29,087 nt of DNA from a virus. Of the stretch, positions 3,681-26,968 are shown in pieces. Both the position numbers and the translations under genes were made by a program. The notes under the pieces are model-generated. The model did no database searches and was not told the DNA's origin. It saw only the letters and a list, made by a program, of their open reading frames with translations. Within the stretch, counting starts at the first letter, position 1; the number at the start of each line of letters is the position of its first letter. The stretch covers positions 1 to 29,087 of IMG/VR virus record IMGVR_UViG_3300032284_001828. One strand, given 5' to 3'.

Positions 3681-5096
3681 TTAATTGTCTGCCTTTGGAT
3701 TAAGAATCTTACTAAGACTAACACGTTCTTCAACAAGTTGTCCTTCTGTATTGGTAAAGCTATGTTTGTTATTGACGAATCCACTGAGTTGTGTATGATT
3801 ATTTGATGCGCCTGGAGTCAGGCTACTGCGTACATCATCTTCAATTTTAACCCAGCGTCTTCCATCATATCGGAATAGCCTATTAGGAACATAGTCTAGT
3901 CGCAGGAAGAAGTCACCACTCTTGGCATTAGCAGGATATGAAATGCCCATGTTTACTTTTAATCCATTTGGTGCAGTACCGTCGCCGGACAAGTAGCCCT
4001 TCTTTTTATAAGTAGGAGAAGGAGTACCACTGTCAACAAATACTGATGCATTTCCATTAGTGCCAACGGTATATGTGGTACTCAGGGTTTCTGCAACACC
4101 AACACTGACCGGGTCGCTTAATAACAGTTCGTGACTATTGATAATATTGGTAATGGTGATATTGTCTGCCGCAGAAATGTTTGGACTAGTGATATTGGCA
4201 CCTACTATGGCCATGAATGTATTGGCCACAAAAACACTTCTTGTATTGGCTCCACTTTGTATGGTAACAAAGTGTGCGGTATATGTACCGTCGGCATTAA
4301 GGTTGCCAGTTATTGTGATTGGTGAAGGATTAGCAATATTAGCATTTGCAAGAGTACCATGCGGACTGTATGCCGGAACATAGAATATATCTGTGTTGTA
4401 CCCACTCTTGGGCAGTTCAATTTCGGCTTCTGCTATAACTTCCTCATTGATAGTAAGGTACTTGCTATAGGTACTAGACACACTACCAACATTGGCAACT
4501 GTAGCATTGGCCGTAAATGGATCAGTTGAGGCCGCAATATTATTAAGAATATCTTTGAATTCTTGACTGTCTACCAATGGCTGTAATTTTACTCGCCACA
4601 GGTGTGGCCACCAAGTGGCACTAAAACCTTCTGCCGCAAAAGCTACATCAGTGATAACATAGAATTTTCTAATTGCAAAAGGAATAGTTTGATCTAGGTT
4701 ATAAAAATCTCGCATGTGCATGAATTCAAGCACATCACCCGCAATTGGTTTGCGACCTATTAGCTCAACCACATCATTCAAGTGGAAGGTCATAAATGTA
4801 GTGCCTGCGGCCAAGAAAATGCCAAATTGACTTAGATCAAAATCTTGGTCCTGCTTCTGATAAATGCCTCGTAGACTGTACACACTTGAATCATATTTAC
4901 GATCGCGGTTTTCGATAAACAGCACATCCTGTAAGGTCGTTGGGCTAGGTGGAGCGGCATTTCCTGGTTGTTCGGTACCAAGGTATTTGTGTAATAGGAC
5001 ACCAGTTCCGCCAATGGTGAACATTTCACTGATTCGACGATCAATGAACTTGTAGTCGTTTGTTTTATTTTCACGCCATAGGCTTAAACGTGGCAT
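3681..5096 (-). CDS. gp14: gp14-like neck protein
   Basis: 471 residues from the preferred start, against 256 in T4. FGIFLAAGTTFMTFHLNDVV, then KPIAGDVLEFMHMRDFYNLD and IRKFYVITDV, match the gp14 neck family, where F..FG......TL.I..N.F and P.EGDLI.FP...LFEI occur in order. gp14 and gp13 form the collar between head and tail and are needed to join tails to filled heads. A frame extends to an ATG at 5162, but AAGGATCC sits just before the ATG at 5096 (MPRLSLW), so 5096 is preferred. Residues from about 210 onward form a beta-rich, Asn/Thr/Ser-rich insertion. A C-terminal segment contains FRYDGRRWVKIED, also echoed in gp15 and gp18. First gene of the minus-strand operon. Confidence 0.85.
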   Translation of the reverse strand: MPRLSLWRENKTNDYKFIDRRISEMFTIGGTGVLLHKYLGTEQPGNAAPPSPTTLQDVLFIENRDRKYDSSVYSLRGIYQKQDQDFDLSQFGIFLAAGTTFMTFHLNDVVELIGRKPIAGDVLEFMHMRDFYNLDQTIPFAIRKFYVITDVAFAAEGFSATWWPHLWRVKLQPLVDSQEFKDILNNIAASTDPFTANATVANVGSVSSTYSKYLTINEEVIAEAEIELPKSGYNTDIFYVPAYSPHGTLANANIANPSPITITGNLNADGTYTAHFVTIQSGANTRSVFVANTFMAIVGANITSPNISAADNITITNIINSHELLLSDPVSVGVAETLSTTYTVGTNGNASVFVDSGTPSPTYKKKGYLSGDGTAPNGLKVNMGISYPANAKSGDFFLRLDYVPNRLFRYDGRRWVKIEDDVRSSLTPGASNNHTQLSGFVNNKHSFTNTEGQLVEERVSLSKILNPKADN

Positions 5097-5127: not shown

Positions 5128-5156
5128 TTGACAGCTAGCCCAAAAGGTGTTACACT
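5128..5156 (+). promoter_or_regulatory. Sigma70-type promoter upstream of the 89-residue ORF
   Basis: TTGACA at 5128-5133, a 17-base spacer, and TACACT at 5151-5156. The predicted transcription start, 6-7 bases after the -10 box, falls on or next to the ATG at 5163, so the message may be leaderless. The spacing and -35 are consensus; the -10 matches 4 of 6 positions. Confidence 0.5.
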
Positions 5157-5162
5157 AATCAA

Positions 5163-5432
5163 ATGCGTGTAAAAACAAGTTTAGATTGGGACACTGTAAA
5201 CGTGCCATTGCTGGCACAAATGCGTTCAGCACCGCAGGCCGCCCGCAAAGATCTAGCTCGTTTTTTAGGAACTGTTACTGGATTGGTACAAGATCTGGGC
5301 CGAGAAGAAGTTGAGATACGCCGTTGTAAAAGAACAACAAGTATACGCCAGCAAGAATTATTGTTGCAAATAGACGACGCCATAACTACATTTGAGCAGT
5401 ATCTGATGTGGGCCCATTTGAGCTATGCTTGA
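5163..5432 (+). CDS. Hypothetical small helical protein
   Basis: 89 residues, not recognised. It is rich in Arg, Lys, Glu, Gln and Leu and looks almost wholly alpha-helical (APQAARKDLARFLGTVTGL, then LGREEVEIRRCKRTTSIRQQ), with no membrane segment. This would suit a small nucleic-acid- or protein-binding early protein, but nothing specific can be assigned. The ATG at 5163 has no Shine-Dalgarno sequence and sits at the predicted start of transcription of the upstream promoter. An internal Met at residue 20 is the alternative start. Its stop codon overlaps the -35 box of the next gene's promoter. Both genes form an island running opposite to gp14/gp15. Confidence 0.55.
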   Translation: MRVKTSLDWDTVNVPLLAQMRSAPQAARKDLARFLGTVTGLVQDLGREEVEIRRCKRTTSIRQQELLLQIDDAITTFEQYLMWAHLSYA

Positions 5433-5457
5433 CACCCGGGCCCGTTTCGTTTATAAT
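5429..5457 (+). promoter_or_regulatory. Perfect-consensus sigma70 promoter
   Basis: TTGACA at 5429-5434, exactly 17 bases, then TATAAT at 5452-5457: a full match to the bacterial vegetative promoter. The spacer contains the palindrome CGGGCCCG (5437-5444), and another GGGCCC lies just upstream at 5410-5415; these could be operator half-sites, but that is speculation. It drives the 407-residue gene (ATG 5487, AGGAG at 5477-5481) and suggests expression by unmodified host polymerase. Confidence 0.85.
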
Positions 5458-5486
5458 TAATTTTTAAAACAAAAACAGGAGCAGGA

Positions 5487-6710
5487 ATGGCTACAGCAAC
5501 CAAAGCAAAACCAGCAACCAAAAAAGCCAACACTGGCAAAACAGTTGCGGGTGTTAAGATTGCTAAGAAAAAAGTTTCTGTGCGTAGAGCACACCTGGCA
5601 GATGAAAAGTACACAGGCGGCGAACCTCAATGGGACACTGAACGTGCTCTTGCAATGAGTGATGCTGATTTTGATCATCACCTGCGCCGTTGTTTCTACT
5701 ACTACAACTATCACTTCACGGTCAAGGATCTTAAACCTGACTTTATCAAGTGGTTGCAAGAACAAAAGCATTTTGTAGTAACCAAGAGCGATCTCAGCAA
5801 GTTTATCAAGAGCCGCTGGGTTCCTATCACTGCCTGTAGCCTGATTGCCGCACATGGACAGGGCATGCCTCTCAAGCCTCGTGCATTGCAGTATCTCGAA
5901 ACAGCGGTGCGTGATGTATGCGAAAAGTACATCGACGATGATAGCGATGCTGTACCCGAAACCAAGGCCGCTACCATAGCAATCAAGGCACCTACGATCC
6001 AAGACCGTCTGAGCGAAAAGACCAGCGAAATACTAGGCGAACTAGACGGACATTACGATGATGTATGTCTGGGCAAAACTGACTTCAAGCACTATGATTT
6101 CTTGGTTGCCAACAACGTGGTTCAAAGCCAGTTGGGCAAGTACGAGGATAGGTTCCTGCCAATCAAAGCAGAACTTGAAGAAGCCAAACTTGGTAAGGAC
6201 GAACAGCTGAAAGAAGGCTACAGTCACTACAAGGCCGCAGACTTCAAACGCATCATTGCCTGGATTGATCAGTTGCTACAGGCCGTGGATCAATATCGAG
6301 ATGTGAAAAAAGCAACCAAGAAGGCTCGTGTAAAACGTGCGCCAAGCAAGGAAAAATTGGTAGCAAAACTCAAGTATGCCAAAGAAGAAAAGACACTAAA
6401 ACTGGTAAGTGTCAACCCGGTTGATATCATTGGATCACAGGAACTTTGGGTGTACAACATCAAGACTCGCAAACTAGGACGCTACCTTGCGGCATCCTAC
6501 CAAGCACTGGCGCTCAAGGGCACGACCTTGGTAAACTTTGATGAGACCAAGAGCATAGCCAAGACCCTGCGCAAGCCCGAAGTACAGATTCCGGAATTCA
6601 TGAAGAGCACCAAGGTACAGTTGCGCAAGCATCTAGACACTATCAAGGCCACAGAAACGCTACTCACAGGACGTATCAATGAAGATACGGTGCTGTTAAA
6701 GGTAGCATAA
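5487..6710 (+). CDS. Conserved phage protein with histone-like basic N-terminus, probably early
   Basis: 407 residues, function unknown. Residues 1-32 are a Lys/Ala/Thr-rich tail (MATATKAKPATKKANTGKT...KIAKKK), resembling histone H1-like or nucleoid-protein tails, so nucleic-acid binding is plausible. The middle is helical and charged (about 165-310) with a second basic patch (KKATKKARVKRAPSKEKL). The C-terminal part (from about residue 320) contains LWVYNIKTRKLGRYLAASYQ, then DETKSIAKTLRKPEVQ and a final GRINEDTVLLKV; I recall this block from other T4-like phage hypothetical proteins. A strong AGGAG site and a perfect sigma70 promoter indicate high, probably early, expression. It sits between neck genes, which is unusual for an early gene. 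No catalytic motif is visible. Confidence 0.8.
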   Translation: MATATKAKPATKKANTGKTVAGVKIAKKKVSVRRAHLADEKYTGGEPQWDTERALAMSDADFDHHLRRCFYYYNYHFTVKDLKPDFIKWLQEQKHFVVTKSDLSKFIKSRWVPITACSLIAAHGQGMPLKPRALQYLETAVRDVCEKYIDDDSDAVPETKAATIAIKAPTIQDRLSEKTSEILGELDGHYDDVCLGKTDFKHYDFLVANNVVQSQLGKYEDRFLPIKAELEEAKLGKDEQLKEGYSHYKAADFKRIIAWIDQLLQAVDQYRDVKKATKKARVKRAPSKEKLVAKLKYAKEEKTLKLVSVNPVDIIGSQELWVYNIKTRKLGRYLAASYQALALKGTTLVNFDETKSIAKTLRKPEVQIPEFMKSTKVQLRKHLDTIKATETLLTGRINEDTVLLKVA

Positions 6711-7926: not shown

Positions 7927-8289
7927 ATGAAAATTATTGAAGTTATTAGTGAAGCAGGAAAACTACCCAAGAGTCATATCAGTGCAACTCCTGGCATGAA
8001 AAAACATCCTGGATTGGACAACAGCAGTCCTTACGCACCCTGGAGATTTGCCAGTATGTTTGTACCCAGCTCTCCCGACTTTGAACATGAGCCGCATAAA
8101 TTAGGTCCAAGTGGACAAGCACTGGTAACAGCGGCCTATAGCAAAGGTGACCATGAGATCATTGCCGCGGCAGAAAAAAGATTTGGCACCAAGAGTGTTA
8201 GCATGACTCCGGCTGGATCTAGCGAGCAAAGCGATACCAATAAAACAAGCCCAACAGCAAAACACAAAAAGAACAAATACGGTGTCTAA
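7927..8289 (+). CDS. Small putative head-associated protein with capsid-targeting-like N-terminus
   Basis: 120 residues. It opens MKIIEVISEAGK, which resembles the T4 capsid-targeting sequence (MKTYQEFIAEA) and contains ISE, fitting the gp21 prohead protease rule (Ile/Leu)-x-Glu. After that comes a Pro/Gly/His-rich segment (KSHISATPGMKKHPGLDNSS) and a short core (GQALVTAAYSKGDHEIIAAA), then a Lys/Ser/Thr-rich tail ending KHKKNKYGV. I recall similar small proteins next to gp13 in marine T4-like phages but no function. It starts 7 bases after gp13 and ends with TAAATA, so the stop codon overlaps a possible late promoter. Being packed in the head is inference from the N-terminus. Confidence 0.7.
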   Translation: MKIIEVISEAGKLPKSHISATPGMKKHPGLDNSSPYAPWRFASMFVPSSPDFEHEPHKLGPSGQALVTAAYSKGDHEIIAAAEKRFGTKSVSMTPAGSSEQSDTNKTSPTAKHKKNKYGV

Positions 8290-15505: not shown

Positions 15506-15943
15506 ATGTCACGTAACTATGCTCAAGGTAAATTCCAATTAAAGAACCCAGCCAAGTATATTGGCAACAGACAACCTACATATCGATCAGGTTGGGAAAT
15601 GGTGTTTATGCAGTTCTGCGATAATAATCCTAGCATTGTTCAGTGGAGTAGTGAAAGCATACAGATACCCTACAGAAATCCTTTCACAGGAAAGCAGACA
15701 ATCTATATTCCAGATTTCCTAATCATATACATAGATAAGAATCAAAAAACGCATGGCGAAGTTATCGAAATCAAGCCAAGCACAGAGACCACAATGGAGA
15801 GTGCCAAGAGCACAAGAGATCAAGCCTATGTTGTACTCAACATGGCAAAATGGCAAGCCGCACAGGCCTGGTGCAAAAATCAAGGACTTAAATTCCGAGT
15901 AGTAACAGAGAACGAGATTTTTCACAAAGGTCAAAAGCGGTAA
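15506..15943 (+). CDS. gp4: gp4-like head completion nuclease
   Basis: 145 residues; T4 gp4 has 150. YAQGKFQLKNPAKYIGNR, then YRSGWEMVFMQFCDNNPSIV, YIPDFLIIY and GEVIEIKPSTET match the gp4 head-completion family. The residues E31, P69-D70 and E88-x-K90 form a complete PD-(D/E)xK nuclease signature in a TnsA-like arrangement. In T4, gp4 together with gp50/gp65 is needed to finish DNA-filled heads so that tails can attach; a trimming role for DNA ends is a reasonable reading of the motif. It is the last gene of the baseplate operon; its stop codon overlaps TAAATA just before gp16. Confidence 0.9.
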   Translation: MSRNYAQGKFQLKNPAKYIGNRQPTYRSGWEMVFMQFCDNNPSIVQWSSESIQIPYRNPFTGKQTIYIPDFLIIYIDKNQKTHGEVIEIKPSTETTMESAKSTRDQAYVVLNMAKWQAAQAWCKNQGLKFRVVTENEIFHKGQKR

Positions 15944-16473: not shown

Positions 16474-17103
16474 ATGAAAACGTTTAAAGAATACTTAACA
16501 GAAAGCAAGAAAACCTTTGGTTTTCGGATTAAAATCGCTGATCATGAACTTGATGGCGAGACCTTGGACAAAATTGAACGCGGCCTCAGCGCATTTAATT
16601 TAAGCGATATAACCAAGACACAGAGTCAGCCAATCACTCGATATAGAGAGTTTGCTAAACTAGGTCCGGTTGGTTGCGAAATGTTCACCGTTACTACCAA
16701 CTATCCAGCCATTCCTCCACAGGTACAACAAGAGATCCATGTTGCTACAGGAATTCCACTAACACATATCTATGTTGCCAATGCTGATGCTCACGACGAT
16801 GCATCGGGCGACGAGCCAGTCAGCGACGAAAACGATGCACCACTACTGGATAATCCTGACATGAAAACAACTGTCAGTGGGCAAGAGCATGTGGGACTAA
16901 AGAAAGTAGAGAGCCTGCTTAAAGAACTAGGCAGAGAAAAAAACACCGGTACACAATACAAAGGTGTTAACGACAGTATCCTAGCCAAGAGTTCGCCAGA
17001 TAACGGCAAAGCAGAAACCACAGCAGATCTACCACAAGGCAAAATGAGCCCAGTGGGTTCAAGACAAAACAAAATTCCAAGCCCAGTAAGAGGAAAGAGA
17101 TAA
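16474..17103 (+). CDS. Putative internal head protein with capsid-targeting-like N-terminus
   Basis: 209 residues. The N-terminus MKTFKEYLTESKK closely parallels the T4 capsid-targeting sequence MKTYQEFIAEA, which sends internal proteins into the prohead and is cut by protease gp21 after (Ile/Leu)-x-Glu. Here LTE at residues 8-10 gives such a site. The folded part (about 14-108) has GFRIKIADHELDGETLDKIE, then YREFAKLGPVGCEMFTVTTN and YPAIPPQVQQEIHVATGIPL. The rest is acidic then Lys/Ser/Pro-rich and probably disordered (ending SPVRGKR). I recall the family from marine T4-like phages without a function. It heads the block that continues with the 1185-residue mosaic, starting one base after this stop codon. 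Packaging into heads is inferred. Confidence 0.72.
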   Translation: MKTFKEYLTESKKTFGFRIKIADHELDGETLDKIERGLSAFNLSDITKTQSQPITRYREFAKLGPVGCEMFTVTTNYPAIPPQVQQEIHVATGIPLTHIYVANADAHDDASGDEPVSDENDAPLLDNPDMKTTVSGQEHVGLKKVESLLKELGREKNTGTQYKGVNDSILAKSSPDNGKAETTADLPQGKMSPVGSRQNKIPSPVRGKR

Positions 17104-17104
17104 T

Positions 17105-20100
17105 ATGACCAACCACAACAACATTTATAACATTCTTGGCAAACTAGATGCCTTGAACCCTAAGGAAGAACCCAAAGGTAACCTCCTTAAAGAAATTCAG
17201 CATCCTGCTAAGAAAGATGTGGTTTCACAACTGAACGATCGTTATGCAACATTCAAGCAACGTTTGAATGAAAGCCAAGTCAATGAACTAAGTCCTGCGT
17301 TGATGCAACGAGCGGCAAAAAAAGCAGGTGCCATGGTTAACAAGAGTTACCAAGATCGCGATTATAATGCCACAACTGATTATGCAAATCAACAAGATAG
17401 AATACAGCATGGCATGGACAAGAGAGCAGGCAAGAGTTCTACGTTTACTAGAAGTAACGATTACCTAAAAAATGAACCAGGTGCTAACACAGCCAAAGGA
17501 TCTCGTATGCCTGTTGGCATGGAAGAAGAACAAGTCAACGAACTAAGTCCTAAGACACTAGGTAGCTATGCAAAGAAAGCCGCAGTAGATGCCAAGTTCC
17601 TGGGACACCAGGCCGGCGCACAGCAAGGTGATGCAATGGCACATGCCAAGCATCCGGGTGACGGTGTCGAAGCAGGCATGGAACTGGACGACAAGGCACA
17701 CAAGCGTTTGCGTGGTGTACACAAAGCAGTTAATAAGTTGTCTGGCATTCCAGTTAAAGAAAATAGAGTAGATAGTCCTGTGTCAAGTGCTATCACACGC
17801 CGAATCCTGAATCAGCGTCATGACCTACTGAAGTATGGCCCGCAGGCAGTAATGGATGCGATTGACCAAGTTGCTGACTGGGTCGATCTTGGACCTGATG
17901 ACGAGATTGGTTCAAGCGATGTTAGCGCATGGGTTAGCCAGGTAGAACGCTATCTAAGATCCAGTGCCGGAGAAGGCATACAGTTCAAAGGTATTGATGT
18001 GGCGGAAGGCTCATTAAACGAATTTGCAGTATCCGGAGACAGCGGCGGCGATGATGATGATGATGAGGATGAATTCCCGCAGATGTTTGAAGCGCCATTT
18101 ACTGCTGTTATCAACGGTAAAAAACAAAGTGGCACAGTGATAATTTATCCTGGAGAAGTTACCTCGGCAGAATGGCATACCAAAGATGCAATCTATATCA
18201 AAACTGGCATGGATAATGTACACAACACAAGTGACTTTATTACGCATGCGGCAGAATATATTCAAGAAATCATTCGATTGAATGGCCGAGGTCACAATTA
18301 TGTAAAGCATCTAAAGCGTCGAGGTGGAGGTGTGGCGGAAGGCGAAACTATTCATACCAAGACAGGACTGATCCACAAGGGCACCTATGGCAGTGACTAT
18401 GACGAACAAGGCAGTGACGACGACTATGACGAGCACGGCAATAAAAAAACCAAGGCCGCCGGACGTCCTAAGAAAGACAAAGCACCAGAGCGTGTGACCG
18501 GCAAGGCATGGAAACACAAAGACGGCCGCCAGACAACAGAAAGTTTTGACGATGAAGAGGAAGAAGATCCAATGAGCTTCACACACGGTGCTAATATAAA
18601 TGGCACTAGTTTAGTGGGTCATATCCAGGCATCGTACGATCAATTGGTACAGGTATTCGGTGAGCCAGATATTGGACCAGATGACCGCAACCAAGACAAA
18701 GTAACCTGTGTATGGGAACTACAATTTGGTGATGGTACAGTTGCCACTATCTATGACTGGAAAGAAGGTGAGACTCCGATGGGTCCATACCGTTGGCATA
18801 TCGGCGGTCGTAATACCAATGCAGAACATATGATTCATAGTGCATTTGAAATGATGCACGAAGGCGAAACTATTCCTACCAAGACAGGACTGATACACAA
18901 AGGCACCTATGGTAGCGATTGGGAAGATCCAGAAGGCAAAGAAGATAGCGCCAGCAATGAACCTAAAAAATCTGGGCGTCCTAAGAAGGATAAAGCACCC
19001 GAGCGTGTGACTGGTAAAGCATGGAAGCACAAAGATGGCCGTGTAGCAGAGTCATTTAAAATTGATTCAATTGTTGAAGATACCATGGCAGAACTAGACA
19101 GCATCCTGCTTGCAGAAAAGGCAGTTAGCCAACAGCAACAAAAATTCATGGGCATGGTACATGCCATGCAGACTGGCCACAAGGTAAAGGGTGCAAGCTC
19201 TGAGCTCAAGAAAGTTGCAAAAGACATGGGCAAGAAAGATGCCGAAGACTTTGCTAGTACCAAGCATGCTGGGCTTCCAAAGAAGGTAAATGAAAGCATG
19301 GCATTTGAGTGTGAAGACCCAGGCGTTAAAGCCATTTGCCATCGTTATGGTAAAGAAGTCAATGACTTTACACAATCAGGTAACCTAGATCCAGACCTGT
19401 ATCATGCGCTACATGATCACTACTATGACTCAATGCCATCTGGCGTCAAGCGTGGATCAAACACCCAAGAGTGGGTAGGACATAAATTTAGCCAAGACAT
19501 GGGCATGGGACAACCAGCAACAGTTGAAGCTGATAGAGGCGACATGGCCGCAGTCATGGACGAATCAGGAGCATTCTATCCTGGACGCACAGTCTACTGG
19601 CGCGGCAAAGCAGGACATGTTGACCGTGTGGAAGGCAACAAGTGCTTTGTACATCTAGCATCAGGTGATATGGATGTATGGCCAACACGTGAATGTGATA
19701 CAGAAAAACAAAGTTTCATGAGCACACTAGGCAAAGACATTAAAGATATAGGACATGGTATGAAAGGCTTTTTAACAGGTGGCCCAGAAGAGCGTAGCGA
19801 ACTAGACGAACTTGCTAGACTAGCAGGACTTGGCAAACACGGTCACGAAGTAGATGAATGCACATATACAGCAGAAGGCGAACATTGCCCTGTACACGGT
19901 ATGAATGAATGTGGTATGGGTATGTATGAAGCCAAAGAAAAGAAAGCTGACAAAGATTATGACGGTGACGGAAAAATCGAATCAGGCAAAGATGAATATT
20001 TGGGTAGCAAAATCCGTGCGGCAAAGAAAGCCACATTCAAGGAGAGCGCAGGATCGATTGATTTTGATAAAGTGTTAGCGGCTATTGCGGCATTGTACGG

Positions 20101-20662
20101 TGATGACATTTGGGATAACGATGCTATGCAGGATTTAGCTAACGATTTAGAACAAGCTGGACCAACTGACCGAGAGTTAGATTTTATTATTGCCAGGGGC
20201 AAGTTGCCAAAGAGATTGGCTGGTATACAATTCTCAGCAGGTGATGATGTTCGATTTAATGAATCTAAGCCAGACTTCTTAGATGTTGACAAAGATGGCA
20301 ATAAGAAAGAGCCATTCAAGAAAGCAGTTAAGGACAAAGAAGAAGATGACAAGTTAGATGAAGCAATGAGTGAACTGCGCCGCCTAAGCGGAATGTCAAA
20401 GTCAACTCGTGAACATGTTGCTCATGCTATTCCTAACATGTATGCGTTTGAGAAAACAGTTACTGAAGAGTTTGCCAACGAACCAGACGAACAGTATGTT
20501 GATACAGACACTATTGTTAACCAAGGCAACGATCTAAATCGCAAGAAGTCACAGTACAGCGGTAAACCACGTGCGGGCGATAACCCAATGACCGGCGATG
20601 ATATCCAGATGGAAGCTAGACTAGCTCGTCTGTACAACAGTATTAAAGTAGCCAACAAATGA
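17105..20662 (+). CDS. Giant modular putative internal head protein with AT-hook repeats
   Basis: 1185 residues with no single recognisable family; it is a chain of short modules joined by acidic or Lys-rich linkers. In order: two QVNELSP helical modules (about 58 and 143), a helical DSPVSSAITRRIL module (223-285), a beta module (about 330-405), a GETIHTKTGLIHKGTYGSD/AT-hook module (412-475), a GTSLVGHIQASYDQLVQVFG module (about 500-585), a second AT-hook module (586-646), a helical AICHRYGKEVNDF module, a PGRTVYWRGKAGHVDRV module, DxDxDG loops near 951 and 1060, and a C-terminal RLxG motif. GRPKK at about 453 and 624 are AT-hook cores that bind AT-rich minor groove. Several (Leu)-x-Glu sites (LLKE30, LNE56, LNE306) fit prohead protease cleavage. 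Virion packaging is inferred. Confidence 0.75.
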   Translation: MTNHNNIYNILGKLDALNPKEEPKGNLLKEIQHPAKKDVVSQLNDRYATFKQRLNESQVNELSPALMQRAAKKAGAMVNKSYQDRDYNATTDYANQQDRIQHGMDKRAGKSSTFTRSNDYLKNEPGANTAKGSRMPVGMEEEQVNELSPKTLGSYAKKAAVDAKFLGHQAGAQQGDAMAHAKHPGDGVEAGMELDDKAHKRLRGVHKAVNKLSGIPVKENRVDSPVSSAITRRILNQRHDLLKYGPQAVMDAIDQVADWVDLGPDDEIGSSDVSAWVSQVERYLRSSAGEGIQFKGIDVAEGSLNEFAVSGDSGGDDDDDEDEFPQMFEAPFTAVINGKKQSGTVIIYPGEVTSAEWHTKDAIYIKTGMDNVHNTSDFITHAAEYIQEIIRLNGRGHNYVKHLKRRGGGVAEGETIHTKTGLIHKGTYGSDYDEQGSDDDYDEHGNKKTKAAGRPKKDKAPERVTGKAWKHKDGRQTTESFDDEEEEDPMSFTHGANINGTSLVGHIQASYDQLVQVFGEPDIGPDDRNQDKVTCVWELQFGDGTVATIYDWKEGETPMGPYRWHIGGRNTNAEHMIHSAFEMMHEGETIPTKTGLIHKGTYGSDWEDPEGKEDSASNEPKKSGRPKKDKAPERVTGKAWKHKDGRVAESFKIDSIVEDTMAELDSILLAEKAVSQQQQKFMGMVHAMQTGHKVKGASSELKKVAKDMGKKDAEDFASTKHAGLPKKVNESMAFECEDPGVKAICHRYGKEVNDFTQSGNLDPDLYHALHDHYYDSMPSGVKRGSNTQEWVGHKFSQDMGMGQPATVEADRGDMAAVMDESGAFYPGRTVYWRGKAGHVDRVEGNKCFVHLASGDMDVWPTRECDTEKQSFMSTLGKDIKDIGHGMKGFLTGGPEERSELDELARLAGLGKHGHEVDECTYTAEGEHCPVHGMNECGMGMYEAKEKKADKDYDGDGKIESGKDEYLGSKIRAAKKATFKESAGSIDFDKVLAAIAALYGDDIWDNDAMQDLANDLEQAGPTDRELDFIIARGKLPKRLAGIQFSAGDDVRFNESKPDFLDVDKDGNKKEPFKKAVKDKEEDDKLDEAMSELRRLSGMSKSTREHVAHAIPNMYAFEKTVTEEFANEPDEQYVDTDTIVNQGNDLNRKKSQYSGKPRAGDNPMTGDDIQMEARLARLYNSIKVANK
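18338..18529 (+). repeat. AT-hook module, copy 1
   Basis: Encodes about 64 residues: GETIHTKTGLIHKGTYGSD, an acidic linker, AGRPKKDKAPERVTGKAWKH and KDGR. The ends are nearly identical to copy 2 at 18860-19042, while the acidic linker differs in length and sequence. Confidence 0.85.
18860..19042 (+). repeat. AT-hook module, copy 2
   Basis: Encodes about 61 residues: GETIPTKTGLIHKGTYGSD, an acidic linker, SGRPKKDKAPERVTGKAWKH and KDGR. Synonymous differences from copy 1 show the repeat is maintained at protein level and is not a very recent DNA duplication. Confidence 0.85.
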
Positions 20663-21348
20663 AACCTCTAAGAGAATATTTGGCACTAGCGGAATATGCC
20701 GCTGAGAATCCTGTGCCGGGTGATATCTTTGAAATAGCAGTAACCACAGATCAGTTGATTGAAACTGTGGTTACTGAACTGTCTCCAGATGGTAATGTGA
20801 TCATTGAATTGGATGAAACAGCTATCGCTATGATGGAGGCGGCCGGCATGTTGTTTGAAGAACCCGGCGCAAAAGCAAATGACTCAACTAGCCCTATACA
20901 CGGCAAAAATCAAATGTTACAGCATCCTGACGGTGAGTTCAGCCCTATAAATGGGTCAGCGTTTGCTCCTTATGATCGTAAGGCCGATCCACGTGAATGG
21001 TTTAGAAAAGACCTAGACGATGACGAAGACGACGGGAAAGAGGTTCATACACACAGCGTGGTAACTATGAGCGGAACCGGGTATGACGACAGGGATGGTG
21101 TAGCTGAAGCAAAGTATCATGGTAAAACAGTCAAGTTGGGCAAGCCCATGGCAGGCGATGTTAAAAAGAGCAAGGTCTATGTTAAAGATCCTAAAACAGG
21201 AAACGTCAAGAAAGTAAATTTTGGTGATCCTAACATGCGTATTAAAAAATCTAGCCCTACTCACAGAAAGAGTTTTAGAGCAAGACACCACTGTGAAAAC
21301 CCTGGCCCACGTACAAGTGCAAGATATTGGTCGTGCCGTGCTTGGTAA
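20659..21348 (+). CDS. Conserved putative virion protein (C-terminal RKSFRARHxC module)
   Basis: 229 residues. N-terminus MKPLREYLALAEYAAE is again capsid-targeting-like, with LAE as possible prohead protease site. Next is a short domain ending NVIIELDETAIAMMEAAGML, then a linker with an acidic run. The C-terminus has KYHGKTVKLGKPMAGDVKKS, then KTGNVKKVNFGDPNMRIKKS and RKSFRARHHCENPGP with SARYWSCRAW. This terminal module is widespread in marine phage virion-associated proteins; its role is unknown. The basic, aromatic end could bind nucleic acid. The ATG overlaps the stop of the giant protein (ATGA), so the two are translationally coupled and probably act together. Confidence 0.8.
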   Translation: MKPLREYLALAEYAAENPVPGDIFEIAVTTDQLIETVVTELSPDGNVIIELDETAIAMMEAAGMLFEEPGAKANDSTSPIHGKNQMLQHPDGEFSPINGSAFAPYDRKADPREWFRKDLDDDEDDGKEVHTHSVVTMSGTGYDDRDGVAEAKYHGKTVKLGKPMAGDVKKSKVYVKDPKTGNVKKVNFGDPNMRIKKSSPTHRKSFRARHHCENPGPRTSARYWSCRAW

Positions 21349-21376: not shown

Positions 21377-22201
21377 ATGAAAAAACTATTAGCAATACTT
21401 GCCCTAGCCGTACTAAGCACACAGGCCAGCGCATGGACACAAAGACCCCCAGCACCAGTAGCACAATGTCAAGTACACGCACCATATGGCTTGCCAAATG
21501 TACAAGGCAACATACAGCCAATTTGCCGTGAAGCATATCTAGTTGGATATGATGCTCCTGCAAAACTACCACGTTTTGTTATGTGGACACTGACACCAGG
21601 TCATGCACTAGGTTGCGTGGCACGTTCAAATGCTTTCGTAGCTGACCAAAGTGTACCAGGTGGTGCAGTACCCGGTGACTATGCAGGCACAGGCTACGAC
21701 AAAGGACACATGGCACCAGATGGTGATCAGTCATGGGATCAACAAGTTGAGTTTGAATCATTCCTGATGACCAACATGAGCCCACAAGCTGGTAGTCTAA
21801 ACCGCGGCATCTGGAAACTATTAGAAACATCAGTACGTGGATGGGCCGCACAAGGTGGTCATAACTTCAACATCGTATCAGGCGGCATCTACACAGCACA
21901 GGATAAGAAGATTGGCGCAGGTGTGATTGTCCCACATGCATTCTACAAGATCGTTATCGATCAAAACACCGGACAGTATGCAGGCTGGATGTTTCCACAT
22001 GTGGCACCATATCCTAATCTAGGCAATGATCTAACCAAGTTCCGCATGCCAGTATCTCAGATTCAGACACAAGCTGGTGTACAGTTCCAGATTCCCAAGG
22101 GTGCAGTTGAACTACAACCAGGCAAAGAATGGCCAGTAGACTTTGGAGCACTAACCAATGCTAAACGCAAACTCTGCGGTGCAAACGCAACAGTTGATTG
22201 A
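21377..22201 (+). CDS. Secreted DNA/RNA non-specific endonuclease (Serratia nuclease/NUC1 family)
   Basis: 274 residues. Residues 1-19 are a Sec signal peptide (MKKLLAILALAVLSTQASA, cleavage after ASA). The mature part carries the family signature: YDKGHMAPDGD, with D108-K-G-H111 corresponding to DRGH and H111 as the general base. It is followed by FLMTNMSPQAGSLNRGIWKL and E150, matching SNxxPQxxxLNxGxWxxLE, with N142 as the Mg2+ ligand. All catalytic residues are present. The enzyme should cut double- and single-stranded DNA and RNA in the periplasm or outside the cell. The ribosome binding site AAGGAG is perfect. It is followed by an intrinsic terminator at 22232. Its place among virion genes is unexpected; possible roles are nucleotide salvage, exclusion of competing phage DNA, or lysate thinning. 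Confidence 0.92.
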   Translation: MKKLLAILALAVLSTQASAWTQRPPAPVAQCQVHAPYGLPNVQGNIQPICREAYLVGYDAPAKLPRFVMWTLTPGHALGCVARSNAFVADQSVPGGAVPGDYAGTGYDKGHMAPDGDQSWDQQVEFESFLMTNMSPQAGSLNRGIWKLLETSVRGWAAQGGHNFNIVSGGIYTAQDKKIGAGVIVPHAFYKIVIDQNTGQYAGWMFPHVAPYPNLGNDLTKFRMPVSQIQTQAGVQFQIPKGAVELQPGKEWPVDFGALTNAKRKLCGANATVD

Positions 22202-22339: not shown

Positions 22340-22768
22340 ATGAAAATTAACGAACTCTTAACTGAATCAATTTCTGATGACTGGTTTAAAGACGGAAGTT
22401 TTAAAGCATTCAAACGAGCCAAGCCTATCAACTATGAGCTAGCCGACAGGCCAGGCACAGTGGACACACTAGAAGGCCCTGTCAAACATGATGCTGGTTT
22501 CTATATCATCACAGGACCCAAAGGTGAACGCTATCCAGTGCCACCGGCAAAGTTTAAAGAACTGTATGATGACAACGGTGATGGTACTGCTACCCCTAAA
22601 AAGATTATTAAACTGGCCAAGGTTGCTGACCATGATGGTGCAGTGGATACCAGCTGGGGTGAGAAACTAAATTACACAGCAGGCAATGATGTTATTGTAA
22701 GACATGGTGCAAACGACTATGGCGCAGTAAAGAAAGACATCTTTGCACAAACATATGAAACAGTATAG
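22340..22768 (+). CDS. Conserved hypothetical protein with PGxxD/DYGxV motifs
   Basis: 142 residues. N-terminus MKINELLTESISDDW has a (Leu)-x-Glu site (LTE) like the other putative head proteins of this block. The body has DRPGTVDTLEGPVKHDAGFY, then IITGPKGERYPVPPAKFKEL, and ends YTAGNDVIVRHGANDYGAVK with KDIFAQTYE. This is the layout of a widespread unassigned family in which PGDxxV, a repeat GE.yPv....F...Y and a terminal DYGxV...iF..TYE occur. No catalytic residues can be named. The ATG overlaps a possible upstream frame (TAATG) and has no clear ribosome binding site. It overlaps the next gene by 14 bases. Confidence 0.72.
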   Translation: MKINELLTESISDDWFKDGSFKAFKRAKPINYELADRPGTVDTLEGPVKHDAGFYIITGPKGERYPVPPAKFKELYDDNGDGTATPKKIIKLAKVADHDGAVDTSWGEKLNYTAGNDVIVRHGANDYGAVKKDIFAQTYETV

Positions 22769-23000
22769 ATTCACATCAACCTACAACTCAGACAGTGCTA
22801 TTCCTGATGCACATATAGATCCTGCAGACCCTGCATTTGCAATCGCCAATGGCGCAATTCCTAGAACAAATTTCATGGAACTACCTGCCTGGCAAAAAGA
22901 AAATCCACAAAATGAAAAAGCCCGGATAATGCGCGAACAAGGCATTAAACCGGGCACACCCGCATGGTTTGCACTATGGGGCACAGGCGGAGCTCGCTAG
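22755..23000 (+). CDS. Small hypothetical protein
   Basis: 81 residues from ATG 22755 (MKQYRFTSTYNSD). A TTG 12 bases upstream is a weaker start. Unrecognised. It contains DAHIDPADPAFAIANGAIPR and ELPAWQKENPQNEKARIMRE, then QGIKPGTPAWFALWGTGGAR: a Pro/Ala/Trp-rich sequence without membrane segment or Cys. The EARIMREQGIKPGTPEWF-like end looks conserved. It starts inside the preceding gene (14-base overlap, coupled translation) and its end overlaps the antisense HNH gene by 4 bases. The context groups it with the putative head-protein block. Confidence 0.6.
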   Translation: MKQYRFTSTYNSDSAIPDAHIDPADPAFAIANGAIPRTNFMELPAWQKENPQNEKARIMREQGIKPGTPAWFALWGTGGAR

Positions 23001-23530
23001 CCCTGGGCCATGCGCCTGTCTTCTATTCCTAGATATTGATACCAGCTAGGATGCTCGATATGTATAGGACGGTTCTTCCACTTGGCCACTAGGTTGTAGT
23101 AGTCTGGCTTGTAGGGCATGCGCATGGGCTTCCACAGCTTGGTACCTTTTTTGTGGTTGCAAGGCTTGCAGGCAGTTACACTATTTTCCCATGTGGTTTT
23201 ACCACCGTTTGCACGAGGAATCATGTGGTCAATGGTCAGCTCGTCACCAGGAAAGGTGTCTCCGCAGTATTGGCATTGATACAAGTCACGTAGGTACAAG
23301 TGAGCACGACTAAAACGAACTCCACGTTTGTTGTTAAAGTAGTTTTTAGTTACGGCCACAGCAGGATAATGAATTGTCAAGTTGGCGCTACGGGCAACAT
23401 GGTCCTCGTGACTCTCCAGCACAGTGATACGATCCAAGAACATCAACTTGATAGCATGTTGCCAGTTGATGATACTCAGCGGAAGTATACTGATAGGCTC
23501 GTAATTAGAGTTTAGTAATAGACAATTCAT
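22997..23530 (-). CDS. HNH endonuclease
   Basis: 177 residues. The HNH core is intact: CQYCG (C86, C89), LTIDHMIPRANGGKTTWENS (D101-H102, N116) and CKPCNHKKG (C121, C124, H126). C86/C89/C121/C124 should bind structural zinc and H102 should be the general base. The N-terminal part (LLLNSNYEPISILPLSIINW and QHAIKLMFLDRITVL) is that of the large bacterial and phage HNH family common in cyanobacteria and phages. It faces gp17 head to head with no gap. HNH proteins next to terminase help packaging cuts in some phages (HK97), so a packaging role is possible; a selfish nuclease is the alternative. Confidence 0.92.
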   Translation of the reverse strand: MNCLLLNSNYEPISILPLSIINWQHAIKLMFLDRITVLESHEDHVARSANLTIHYPAVAVTKNYFNNKRGVRFSRAHLYLRDLYQCQYCGDTFPGDELTIDHMIPRANGGKTTWENSVTACKPCNHKKGTKLWKPMRMPYKPDYYNLVAKWKNRPIHIEHPSWYQYLGIEDRRMAQG

Positions 23531-25144: not shown

Positions 25145-26968
25145 ATGTCACGTGAAATAGAAAAAATCGCCGAAGACCTGTTCGAAAAAGTACGTAGTAG
25201 ATTTGAGAACATCAGACTGGGCGACGAAAATGCCAAAGCATGTAGCGACCCAGAAAAAGCTCGTTTTTTTAGTTTTAACTATTCTGTTGACGGCAACAAT
25301 TACGGCAATGTAACCATCAGTCTCATTGATGAAAACAGTCTCAAAGTTTACTTCAGCAAAAACATCAGCAACAAACTCGACGATTCGGAAAAAAAGCAAT
25401 GGTATGCTTTCCTTAAAGACCTACGTTTTTTTGCAAAACGAAACCTATTAACCTTTGACACAAGAGACATCACACGTAGTAATCTAAATATCAAGGACCT
25501 AAAACAGGTAGGAAAGTCTGATGCTACACTAGACACCAAGGACTTGACCATGAACGAAAGCCGCATGTATGGCACAACCAAACACAGTTTTGAAAATATC
25601 GGAACCGCACGTTTAAGAATAGTACACACCGAAAGTGTAAACCCAGAACTACGAGGCGCAAGAGCAAGACACATAAATGCAATCTATGTAGAAAACGCAC
25701 AAGGCGAAAGATTCAAATTAGAACATAATAAACTAAGTGGTGCCCGTGCAATGGCACGACATATCTCAGAAGGCGGTATCCCCTACGATGATGTTGGTCG
25801 TCATATCAACGGCATGATCCAGGAGATGAGTGAACTAGGAAGATTCGTACGTGTGATGAGTCGTCGCACGTTTGAAGACAGCACAGCAAGTACCATGGTC
25901 ACTGCGGCCTCAAACTATTATCATGGCATGAATAGACAGCTGAACCATCTTAAAGGCACACGGGCATATAAATTATTTGTAGAAAATTTTGAACCACAGG
26001 CAACGCAACTAGACGAAGTAGATGTAAACGAATTAAAAGAAAAATTTGTTAAGAAAATATTCGACGATCGCATGATGGCGGCTTTACCACACGTACACAA
26101 GGCCTATCAGCTACACGAGCAAGCACAGCAACGACAAGTTGACCTAGTCAGAGATGTAGTAGAAAACCGTGCTCCTCTTAAGCTACTTGCCAACGAGGGC
26201 ATGGACGAATATATACGGGCTCTTAATTTCAGCGATAAAAACGAACTAGTAGTAAAGGTACTCGAGGATATAGCTCAGCGAGCTATTGCAACTCCTGAAG
26301 TTGCAGAGTTTGCTAAACACTGGTCAACAAATTATAACAATGTAACAGAAGACAGCTCACAAGCAATCAGAGAAAACCAAGCACTGGCAGTTAAATTGGC
26401 AACACATTATCTCAAGGATCTACGCAATCTCAGAGAGGGATTGCGTATCCAGGCAAACGAAGTTGACTATATTGACTTTGATGATGGCAGTGAAATAATT
26501 GAAGAAGGCACCTGGTCACTTCCAAAAACATCACAGCAGATGCAGGACCTACAAACACTACTGGCAAATCCATTGCCAGTAGGAGTAGACGCTGAAAACG
26601 CAACTAGTGCCTTATATGATCTATTGGGCAACGATGATCTGTTTAATTCACTAAGTGATCTAGCAGAAATTTCCGGACCCAAGGCAGATGCTCGCGATGC
26701 GATCAAACAGTATATTAAAAACAACCTACCAGGATTGTATACCAAACTTGGACTAGATGATTCAACCATGGACCAAGATCCTACACAGCAACAGCAACCA
26801 GGCGAAACTCCACAAGCAGGCGCACCTGCAACAGCAGAGCCACAGGATCCAAATTCTGGCACAACAGGTGGAACTGGAATGGACAGCCCAGCTGGCGCCA
26901 ACACAGCACAAGAGAGTGTGGACCGACTGGTCCGACTAGCCGGAATCAAATCCATTCTTATAAAATAA
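25145..26968 (+). CDS. Conserved large hypothetical protein of T4-like marine phages
   Basis: 607 residues, function unknown. Recognisable blocks are QWYAFLKDLRFFAKRNLLTF (86-105) followed by DTRDITRSNLNIKDL, then RMYGTTKHSFENIGTARLRI, RHINAIYVENAQGERFKLEH, KLSGARAMARHISEGGIPYD and a mainly helical second half. I recall these blocks, in this order, in cyanophage and pelagiphage proteins annotated as hypothetical. A further module near residue 450-530 (LQTLLANPLPVGVDAENATS) is followed by a Gln/Pro/Gly/Thr-rich disordered linker. The last 20 residues (SVDRLVRLAGIKSILIK) share the RLxG motif with the giant mosaic protein. Virion association is inferred. An intrinsic terminator follows. Confidence 0.82.
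   Translation: MSREIEKIAEDLFEKVRSRFENIRLGDENAKACSDPEKARFFSFNYSVDGNNYGNVTISLIDENSLKVYFSKNISNKLDDSEKKQWYAFLKDLRFFAKRNLLTFDTRDITRSNLNIKDLKQVGKSDATLDTKDLTMNESRMYGTTKHSFENIGTARLRIVHTESVNPELRGARARHINAIYVENAQGERFKLEHNKLSGARAMARHISEGGIPYDDVGRHINGMIQEMSELGRFVRVMSRRTFEDSTASTMVTAASNYYHGMNRQLNHLKGTRAYKLFVENFEPQATQLDEVDVNELKEKFVKKIFDDRMMAALPHVHKAYQLHEQAQQRQVDLVRDVVENRAPLKLLANEGMDEYIRALNFSDKNELVVKVLEDIAQRAIATPEVAEFAKHWSTNYNNVTEDSSQAIRENQALAVKLATHYLKDLRNLREGLRIQANEVDYIDFDDGSEIIEEGTWSLPKTSQQMQDLQTLLANPLPVGVDAENATSALYDLLGNDDLFNSLSDLAEISGPKADARDAIKQYIKNNLPGLYTKLGLDDSTMDQDPTQQQQPGETPQAGAPATAEPQDPNSGTTGGTGMDSPAGANTAQESVDRLVRLAGIKSILIK

Follow-up and report, generated by a model that had tools for sequence, protein, structure and literature searches.

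A mosaic phage protein as a possible capsid-internal cargo polyprotein cut at its module joints

Introduction

Why would a phage encode one protein of 1185 amino acids that is assembled from about 13-16 modules? This question is raised by P0001, the product of an intact open reading frame (ORF; 17105-20662, + strand, start ATG, stop TGA) in virus record IMGVR_UViG_3300032284_001828. The entire 29-kb record (29,087 nucleotides), from a phage known only through environmental DNA, is the window analysed here. Among named phages, the jumbo phages have the large terminases nearest to the one encoded in the window (54% identical to that of PA5oct), and it is 86% identical to the terminase of a 355-kb contig.

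The answer towards which we lean is that a T4-related phage, probably a jumbo phage, carries P0001 inside its capsid as a cargo polyprotein, which is cut into its modules and ejected. That it is packaged and cut is quite likely, because hydrophobic-x-Glu sites stand at the module joints, relatives encode a gp21-type protease, the neighboring genes encode T4-like capsid-targeting sequences (CTS), one motif recurs in the scaffold and counterparts have been detected by mass spectrometry (MS).

Modules and their exchange

A preliminary description, made from the sequence alone, had seen in P0001 a mosaic with repeated modules, acidic and Lys-rich stretches, AT-hook cores and DxDxDG loops, and all of these are present. 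Two DNA repeat pairs (73 nt at 85% identity and 68 nt at 87%) are the two linker modules that bear the AT-hook-like cores (GRPKK at residues 453 and 624), and the DxDxDG-type loops are at residues 949 and 1060. The map is as follows; a slash marks a proposed cleavage site, pLDDT is the predicted local distance difference test score and L numbers refer to individual related loci.

17105-20662 (+): modular polyprotein of 1185 residues; an ORF, with relatives that have shuffled modules
17105-17272 (+): residues 1-56, N-terminal segment, putative targeting role, ends RLNE/S; conserved in L008/L009
17273-17761 (+): residues 57-219, two VNELSP-headed stretches, ends VKE/N; DNA repeat D4; low pLDDT, predicted mostly unfolded
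17762-18007 (+): residues 220-301, helical module, ends VAE/G; found in other proteins of L032, L043, L065 and L068
18008-18340 (+): residues 302-412, acidic stretch and beta/alpha module, internal MFE/A, ends VAE/G; 84-90% identical in L002, L005 and L010
18341-18562 (+): residues 413-486, linker module with GRPKK AT-hook-like core, copy 1; repeat D1/D2
18563-18862 (+): residues 487-586, mixed alpha/beta domain, ends MHE/G; standalone gene in L103, MW202796 and other phages; pLDDT 72
18863-19051 (+): residues 587-649, linker module with GRPKK copy 2, ends VAE/S; repeat D1/D2
19052-19294 (+): residues 650-730, DUF3008-like helical module (672-730) and leader, sites LLAE/K and VNE/S; phrog_30268 (E=3e-15); S-SCSM1 ORF93
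19295-19564 (+): residues 731-820, four-helix module, ends MDE/S; pLDDT up to 96; 17 non-redundant relatives
19565-19930 (+): residues 821-942, low-confidence, LDELARLAGLG (903-909), CPVHG Cys/His stretch, ends MYE/A; from a motif scan
19931-20044 (+): residues 943-980, DYDGDG loop module, ends FKE/S; L006
20045-20263 (+): residues 981-1053, helical module, ends FNE/S; 63-91% identical in L018, L029, L021, L032, L035 and L059, at other positions
20264-20362 (+): residues 1054-1086, KPDFLDVDKDG module, ends LDE/A; 21 non-redundant relatives; S-SCSM1 ORF92
20363-20662 (+): residues 1087-1185 and stop, SELRRLSGM (1091-1097), conserved C-terminus; virion structural protein family phrog_15988 (E=7e-4); L008/L009

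The DUF3008 (PF11450) match on residues 672-730 scores 16.4 bits, under the curated Pfam cut-off of 24. AlphaFold modelling of P0001 predicts folded islands with low-confidence linkers between them, and the mean pLDDT of the whole model is 47.

A scan of viral contigs gave 80 related loci and a non-redundant set of 59 polyproteins, to which the family counts below refer. Module shuffling among relatives had been set beforehand as a check, and it was found, in that 70 of the 251 polyprotein pairs with at least two modules in common are non-collinear. The pieces that relatives have in common with P0001 stand in differing orders, and modules also occur apart. Module 302-412 is carried by L003 as well, and the terminases on the L002, L010 and L003 contigs are 67% identical to that of the window; this module was found in neither of the two contigs with the more similar terminases (84-86% identical). 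Likewise, L021, L032 and L035, where the terminases are 61-67% identical, carry module 981-1053 at 79-85% identity, and L018, a contig with no terminase, carries it at 91%. This pattern of module identity against terminase identity indicates that modules have been exchanged between phages.

Some modules also exist as genes of their own. In L103, module 487-586 forms a gene by itself (4001-5061) with a DUF932 gene after it, and in MW202796 (L093), a standalone homologue (5135-6312) is beside an ArdC/zincin (MPTase-PolyVal) anti-restriction gene; these homologues are located in non-structural gene blocks. In L017, L036, L041 and L045, the DUF3008-like module is a separate gene with a CTS at its head. 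A search of bacterial genomes found no relative of module 487-586, the DUF3008-like module was found there in one contig of an archaeal metagenome-assembled genome, possibly phage DNA, and a plasmid search found none. A gene of Atu_ph07 at a P0001-like position was rejected as a homologue since it encodes a different, fiber-like protein, and Phosso genes 409/410 have nothing clear in common with P0001 beyond a single motif.

Glutamate sites at the joints

The preliminary description had pointed to several (Leu)-x-Glu sites, and this claim stands in a broader form only. The strict T4 consensus [LI]xE occurs 8 times in P0001 against 8.3 expected, whereas [LIVFM]xE[SAG] occurs 12 times against 4.5 (p=0.0005). 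Therefore, support for the claim comes from the broader site, the wider family and the joints. Across the family, [LIVMF]xE[SAGNT] occurs 522 times against 221±13, and the same pattern with Asp for Glu is depleted (153 against 224). The ends of homology between polyproteins lie within 6 residues of such a site in 442 of 1514 cases, against 237±13 under site rotation. With Asp in place of Glu the number is 68 (70 expected), with Lys it is 159 (209 expected), and a frame-shifted control, in which the hydrophobic residue is adjacent to Glu, has a smaller excess (149 against 98). When every residue type is compared at the second position after a hydrophobic residue, Glu alone shows clear enrichment near joints (1.56x). 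Homology ends are not independent of each other, and so, a z-score is not a probability here; the controls and a per-protein test, in which 53 of the 59 polyproteins were above their own null, are the safer figures. When P0001 is cut in silico at these sites, the fragments mostly begin at modules that are present elsewhere, and 10 of the 13 sites are in coil in the AlphaFold model (p=0.07).

The site pattern was partly picked after viewing P0001, and the independent checks are the Asp and Lys controls and an alignment of capsid proteins. In the latter, the major capsid proteins of relatives have YLAE/S, HLME/T, YLAE/N, YLKE/N, YLGE/S or FLVE/N at the position where T4 gp23 is cleaved (LTE65/A). 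This pattern, derived without P0001, agrees with the joints of the P0001 family. A protease of the S77 (gp21) type exceeds the Pfam cut-off in nine of 23 related records, one of which is the contig that carries the closest full-length relative. T4 gp21 cleaves after L/I-x-E and chops core proteins into several fragments (PMC9026906), and the protease of SPN3US prefers Ser after the cut (PMC10052503).

Possible loading into the prohead

Polyprotein relatives are usually placed in a head/tail gene block near the large terminase. P0001 itself is separated by a single base from the preceding 209-aa ORF, and an ATGA overlap (20659-20662) joins it to the following one, so the coupling to one neighbor that had been proposed is borne out. 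The features needed here are the following.

16474-17103 (+): upstream neighbor, T4-like CTS MKTFKEYLTE/S; orthologue of MS-detected PA5oct gp282
20659-21348 (+): downstream neighbor, ATGA-coupled; orthologues with a CTS-type N-terminus; C-terminal phrog_7595 module
25145-26968 (+): 607-aa protein of virion structural family phrog_13484; VDRLVRLAGI near its C-terminus (scaffold-like motif)

The N-termini MKTFKEYLTES (ORF 16474) and MKINELLTES (ORF 22340) closely resemble MKTYQEFIAEA of T4 IPII/IPIII. The N-terminus of ORF 20659, MKPLREYLALAE, is weaker as a CTS; its orthologues begin MKSLKEYIAES or MKNLRDYIVES. Both genes flanking the polyprotein gene are headed by a CTS in L037, L052, L054, L055, L057 and L058. 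Capsid-targeting-like N-termini in the neighbors, as first described, are thus confirmed, one of them more strongly in orthologues than in the window.

The N-terminus of P0001 belongs to a set of amphipathic N-termini that are followed by LxE, and some of these hold an RLAG-like motif (L014, NNIYDILKKMAGL). The motif [L]xRLAG[L] occurs 65 times in 39 of the 59 polyproteins against 0.8 expected by chance, and the gp22-like scaffolds of five relatives and PA5oct have it as their C-terminus. These scaffolds (L096 10845-11945; PA5oct gp330; L087-L090) end in (I/L)KRLAG(L/I), a possible general docking tail. The scaffold-type motif is also near the C-terminus of the structural protein of the 25145 type, orthologues of which are present in L008, L009, L012 and others. 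From these sequences, we infer that the RLAG motif may dock the polyproteins on the same partner as the scaffold. In PA5oct, the N-terminal motif has a weak association with MS detection (8/74 against 2/100, p=0.02).

Counterparts in virions

In PA5oct, gp281, which is encoded at the same gene position as P0001, and gp282, an orthologue of the upstream neighbor (E=1e-8), are annotated as detected by electrospray ionization tandem MS (ESI-MS/MS); the scaffold gp330 is not. CsCl-purified virions of S-SCSM1 held ORF92 and ORF93, annotated virion proteins that have KPDFLD and DUF3008-like modules in common with P0001. The preliminary description had suggested a packaged, protease-cut, DNA-condensing polyprotein; its first two parts are upheld indirectly, and the third is not, as discussed below.

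The following course of events, in which cleavage, head location, ejection and function are all inferred, would account for these observations. P0001 would enter the prohead core by means of its N-terminal segment and its RLAG(L) motifs, which mimic the C-terminal sequence of the gp22-like scaffold. The gp21-type S77 protease of the phage would then cleave C-terminal to the inter-module hydrophobic-x-Glu sites, and the CTS-bearing proteins encoded on both sides would be cleaved together with P0001. The freed small modules (about 30-120 aa) would remain in the head amid the DNA, be ejected with it and probably act early on host defenses or functions, like T4 IPI and Alt. Modules could be swapped freely by recombination between phages because every module would end in a cleavable joint. 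A wider proposal, which we offer only tentatively, is that large-genome T4-related phages carry a train of cargo of this kind, with rapid module swapping at prohead-protease sites, loading by a scaffold motif instead of a CTS and many early effectors per particle from one gene.

Several observations weigh against this explanation, in addition to the chance-level count of the strict T4 consensus. The N-terminus of P0001, MTNHNNIYNILGKL, has no T4-type CTS (about 10 residues ending in [LI]xE), and no protease or capsid gene is present within the window, a fragment without head genes. PA5oct gp281 is likened to P0001 by position and motifs only (E=0.18), and the PA5oct MS list includes some cytosolic enzymes. 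Fold comparison of the P0001 model gave no PDB match, and the model of module 487-586 matches only viral proteins without known function and no PDB fold. No activity was assigned to any P0001 module, nor did any of them match a PDB fold.

Cargo, core or another role

If P0001 is packaged and cut, it is likely to be ejected cargo rather than part of the assembly core, given its folded, exchangeable domains, one of which has standalone homologues outside the structural genes, and the analogy with T4 IPI and Alt. The main rival, which we consider unlikely, is that P0001 assists the gp22-like scaffold in setting the size or shape of the core, as T4 gp67/gp68, and is shredded by the protease to empty the head; its modules would be structural only and most fragments would leave. 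P0001 is net acidic, as is T4 gp67, it has several hydrophobic-x-Glu sites and its RLAG motif is common with the scaffold C-terminus; furthermore, T4 gp22, gp67 and gp68 are each cut into multiple fragments (PMC9026906). However, a filler has no need of folded, highly conserved and exchanged modules, one of which stands alone in non-structural blocks, and it was PA5oct gp281, not the scaffold, that was detected by MS.

It is improbable that P0001 is a virion protein that is never cut, such as an accessory protein of the neck or tail, with a body that is modular and flexible and Glu sites that are mere acidic linkers. The gene does lie between tail-tube/neck genes and the terminase, the linkers are disordered and Glu by itself has a mild excess near joints (1.26x), but Asp shows no such excess, and it makes a difference whether a hydrophobic residue stands two positions before Glu. 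In addition, the flanking genes have capsid-targeting N-termini, and RLAG is a scaffold motif.

Even less probable is a DNA-condensing internal protein, the fragments of which would bind and neutralize packaged DNA. The GRP cores of P0001, AGRPKK and SGRPKK, are putative AT-hooks, RGRP is present in 12 of the 59 relatives against 0.2 by chance, and a few fragments are net positive (the DUF3008-like one is +6 and residues 57-219 are +5). However, the net charge of P0001 is -47 (159 K+R, 206 D+E), seven of its larger fragments are negative and 44 of the 59 relatives are acidic; DNA condensation is unlikely because of this charge, and we rejected it as the main role. The standalone non-structural homologues of module 487-586, one of them by an ArdC-type gene, also point to effector cargo and not to condensation. 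Finally, a role as a cytoplasmic, multi-module protein outside the virion is the least probable, since the gene is in a late head/tail block and a flanking orthologue and module-sharing proteins were detected by MS in virions, even though these data come only from other phages and one module is a standalone non-structural gene elsewhere.

Relation to known systems

As cargo, P0001 may work like the T4 internal proteins or the polyvalent proteins, and it is filed in neither class because it is acidic and has no T4-type CTS on the one hand and no known polyvalent domain on the other. The T4 internal proteins are packaged via the prohead core, cut after Glu by the S77 protease gp21, variable among phages and ejected (PMC9026906, PMC3012670). 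The genes flanking P0001 bear the same kind of N-terminus as T4 IPI, IPII, IPIII and Alt. However, T4 internal proteins are small, single-module and basic, each with its own CTS, and P0001 has many modules. The scaffold and core proteins gp22, gp67 and gp68 resemble P0001 in being acidic and in giving several fragments, and RLAG is common to the gp22-like scaffolds of the relatives; no such module exchange has been described for them, and the P0001 modules resemble small folded domains.

Polyvalent proteins (P1 DarA/DdrB, N4 vRNAP) likewise have many unrelated domains per polypeptide and are thought to be delivered together with the DNA and processed (Iyer et al. 2017, PMC5512222). Their domains are mostly large and enzymatic, often with a built-in zincin peptidase. 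None was detected in P0001, where a Pfam scan found none of the known polyvalent domains (MPTase, ART, ArdC-N), and its cutting would be in trans by the head protease. Head proteins of SPN3US and phiKZ (PMC10052503) also have multiple cuts after Glu, with Ser preferred at P1', but their products are an N-terminal propeptide and one mature protein and not a series of interchangeable modules. Lastly, the cyanophage proteins S-SCSM1 ORF92/93, which are in virions, and P-TIM40 gp113, encoded between gp16 and gp17, have KPDFLD and/or DUF3008-like modules; unlike the P0001 family, they have no RLAG motif and no clear hydrophobic-x-Glu excess.

An open-access literature search turned up no modular polyprotein described as a substrate of a prohead protease. 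If the explanation is true, phages would have a modular route for packaging groups of early-acting proteins and trading them, in which the protease site doubles as a recombination joint, and the RLAG motif of the scaffold tail would be a possible second capsid-loading signal. The modules would form a catalogue of small, unknown domains, all of them candidate anti-defense or host-takeover factors, and would provide a frame for many "hypothetical" cyanophage and jumbo phage proteins that contain them.

Other genes of the window

The downstream neighbor (20659-21348, +) is also a mosaic, in which a VAE/A site joins the CTS-type N-terminus to the phrog_7595 module; this module has many basic and aromatic residues (RKSFRARHHCENPGPRTSARYWSCRAW). 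Two genes downstream of P0001, ORF 21377-22201 (+) encodes a DNA/RNA non-specific endonuclease (PF01223, E=6e-39) with an apparent signal peptide, and the matching position in L008 and L009 is occupied by an ORF of 277 aa, the N-terminus of which is signal-like in a similar way. The protein encoded at 22340-22768 (+), in which the CTS-like MKINELLTES is followed by a PGDYG domain (PF14083, E=6e-7), is another candidate packaged protein.

A 120-aa protein (7927-8289, +) with the N-terminus MKIIEVISEAGKL has an early I-x-E/A site as well, and family searches with it found no family. ORF 15506-15943 (+) has a match to the TnsA-like endonuclease N-terminal domain (PF08722, E=2e-22), and the PA5oct gene in the corresponding position carries the annotation head closure. 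ORF 22997-23530, which immediately precedes the terminase gene and is on the opposite (-) strand, appears HNH-like by eye (CxxC and TIDHMIPRANGG).

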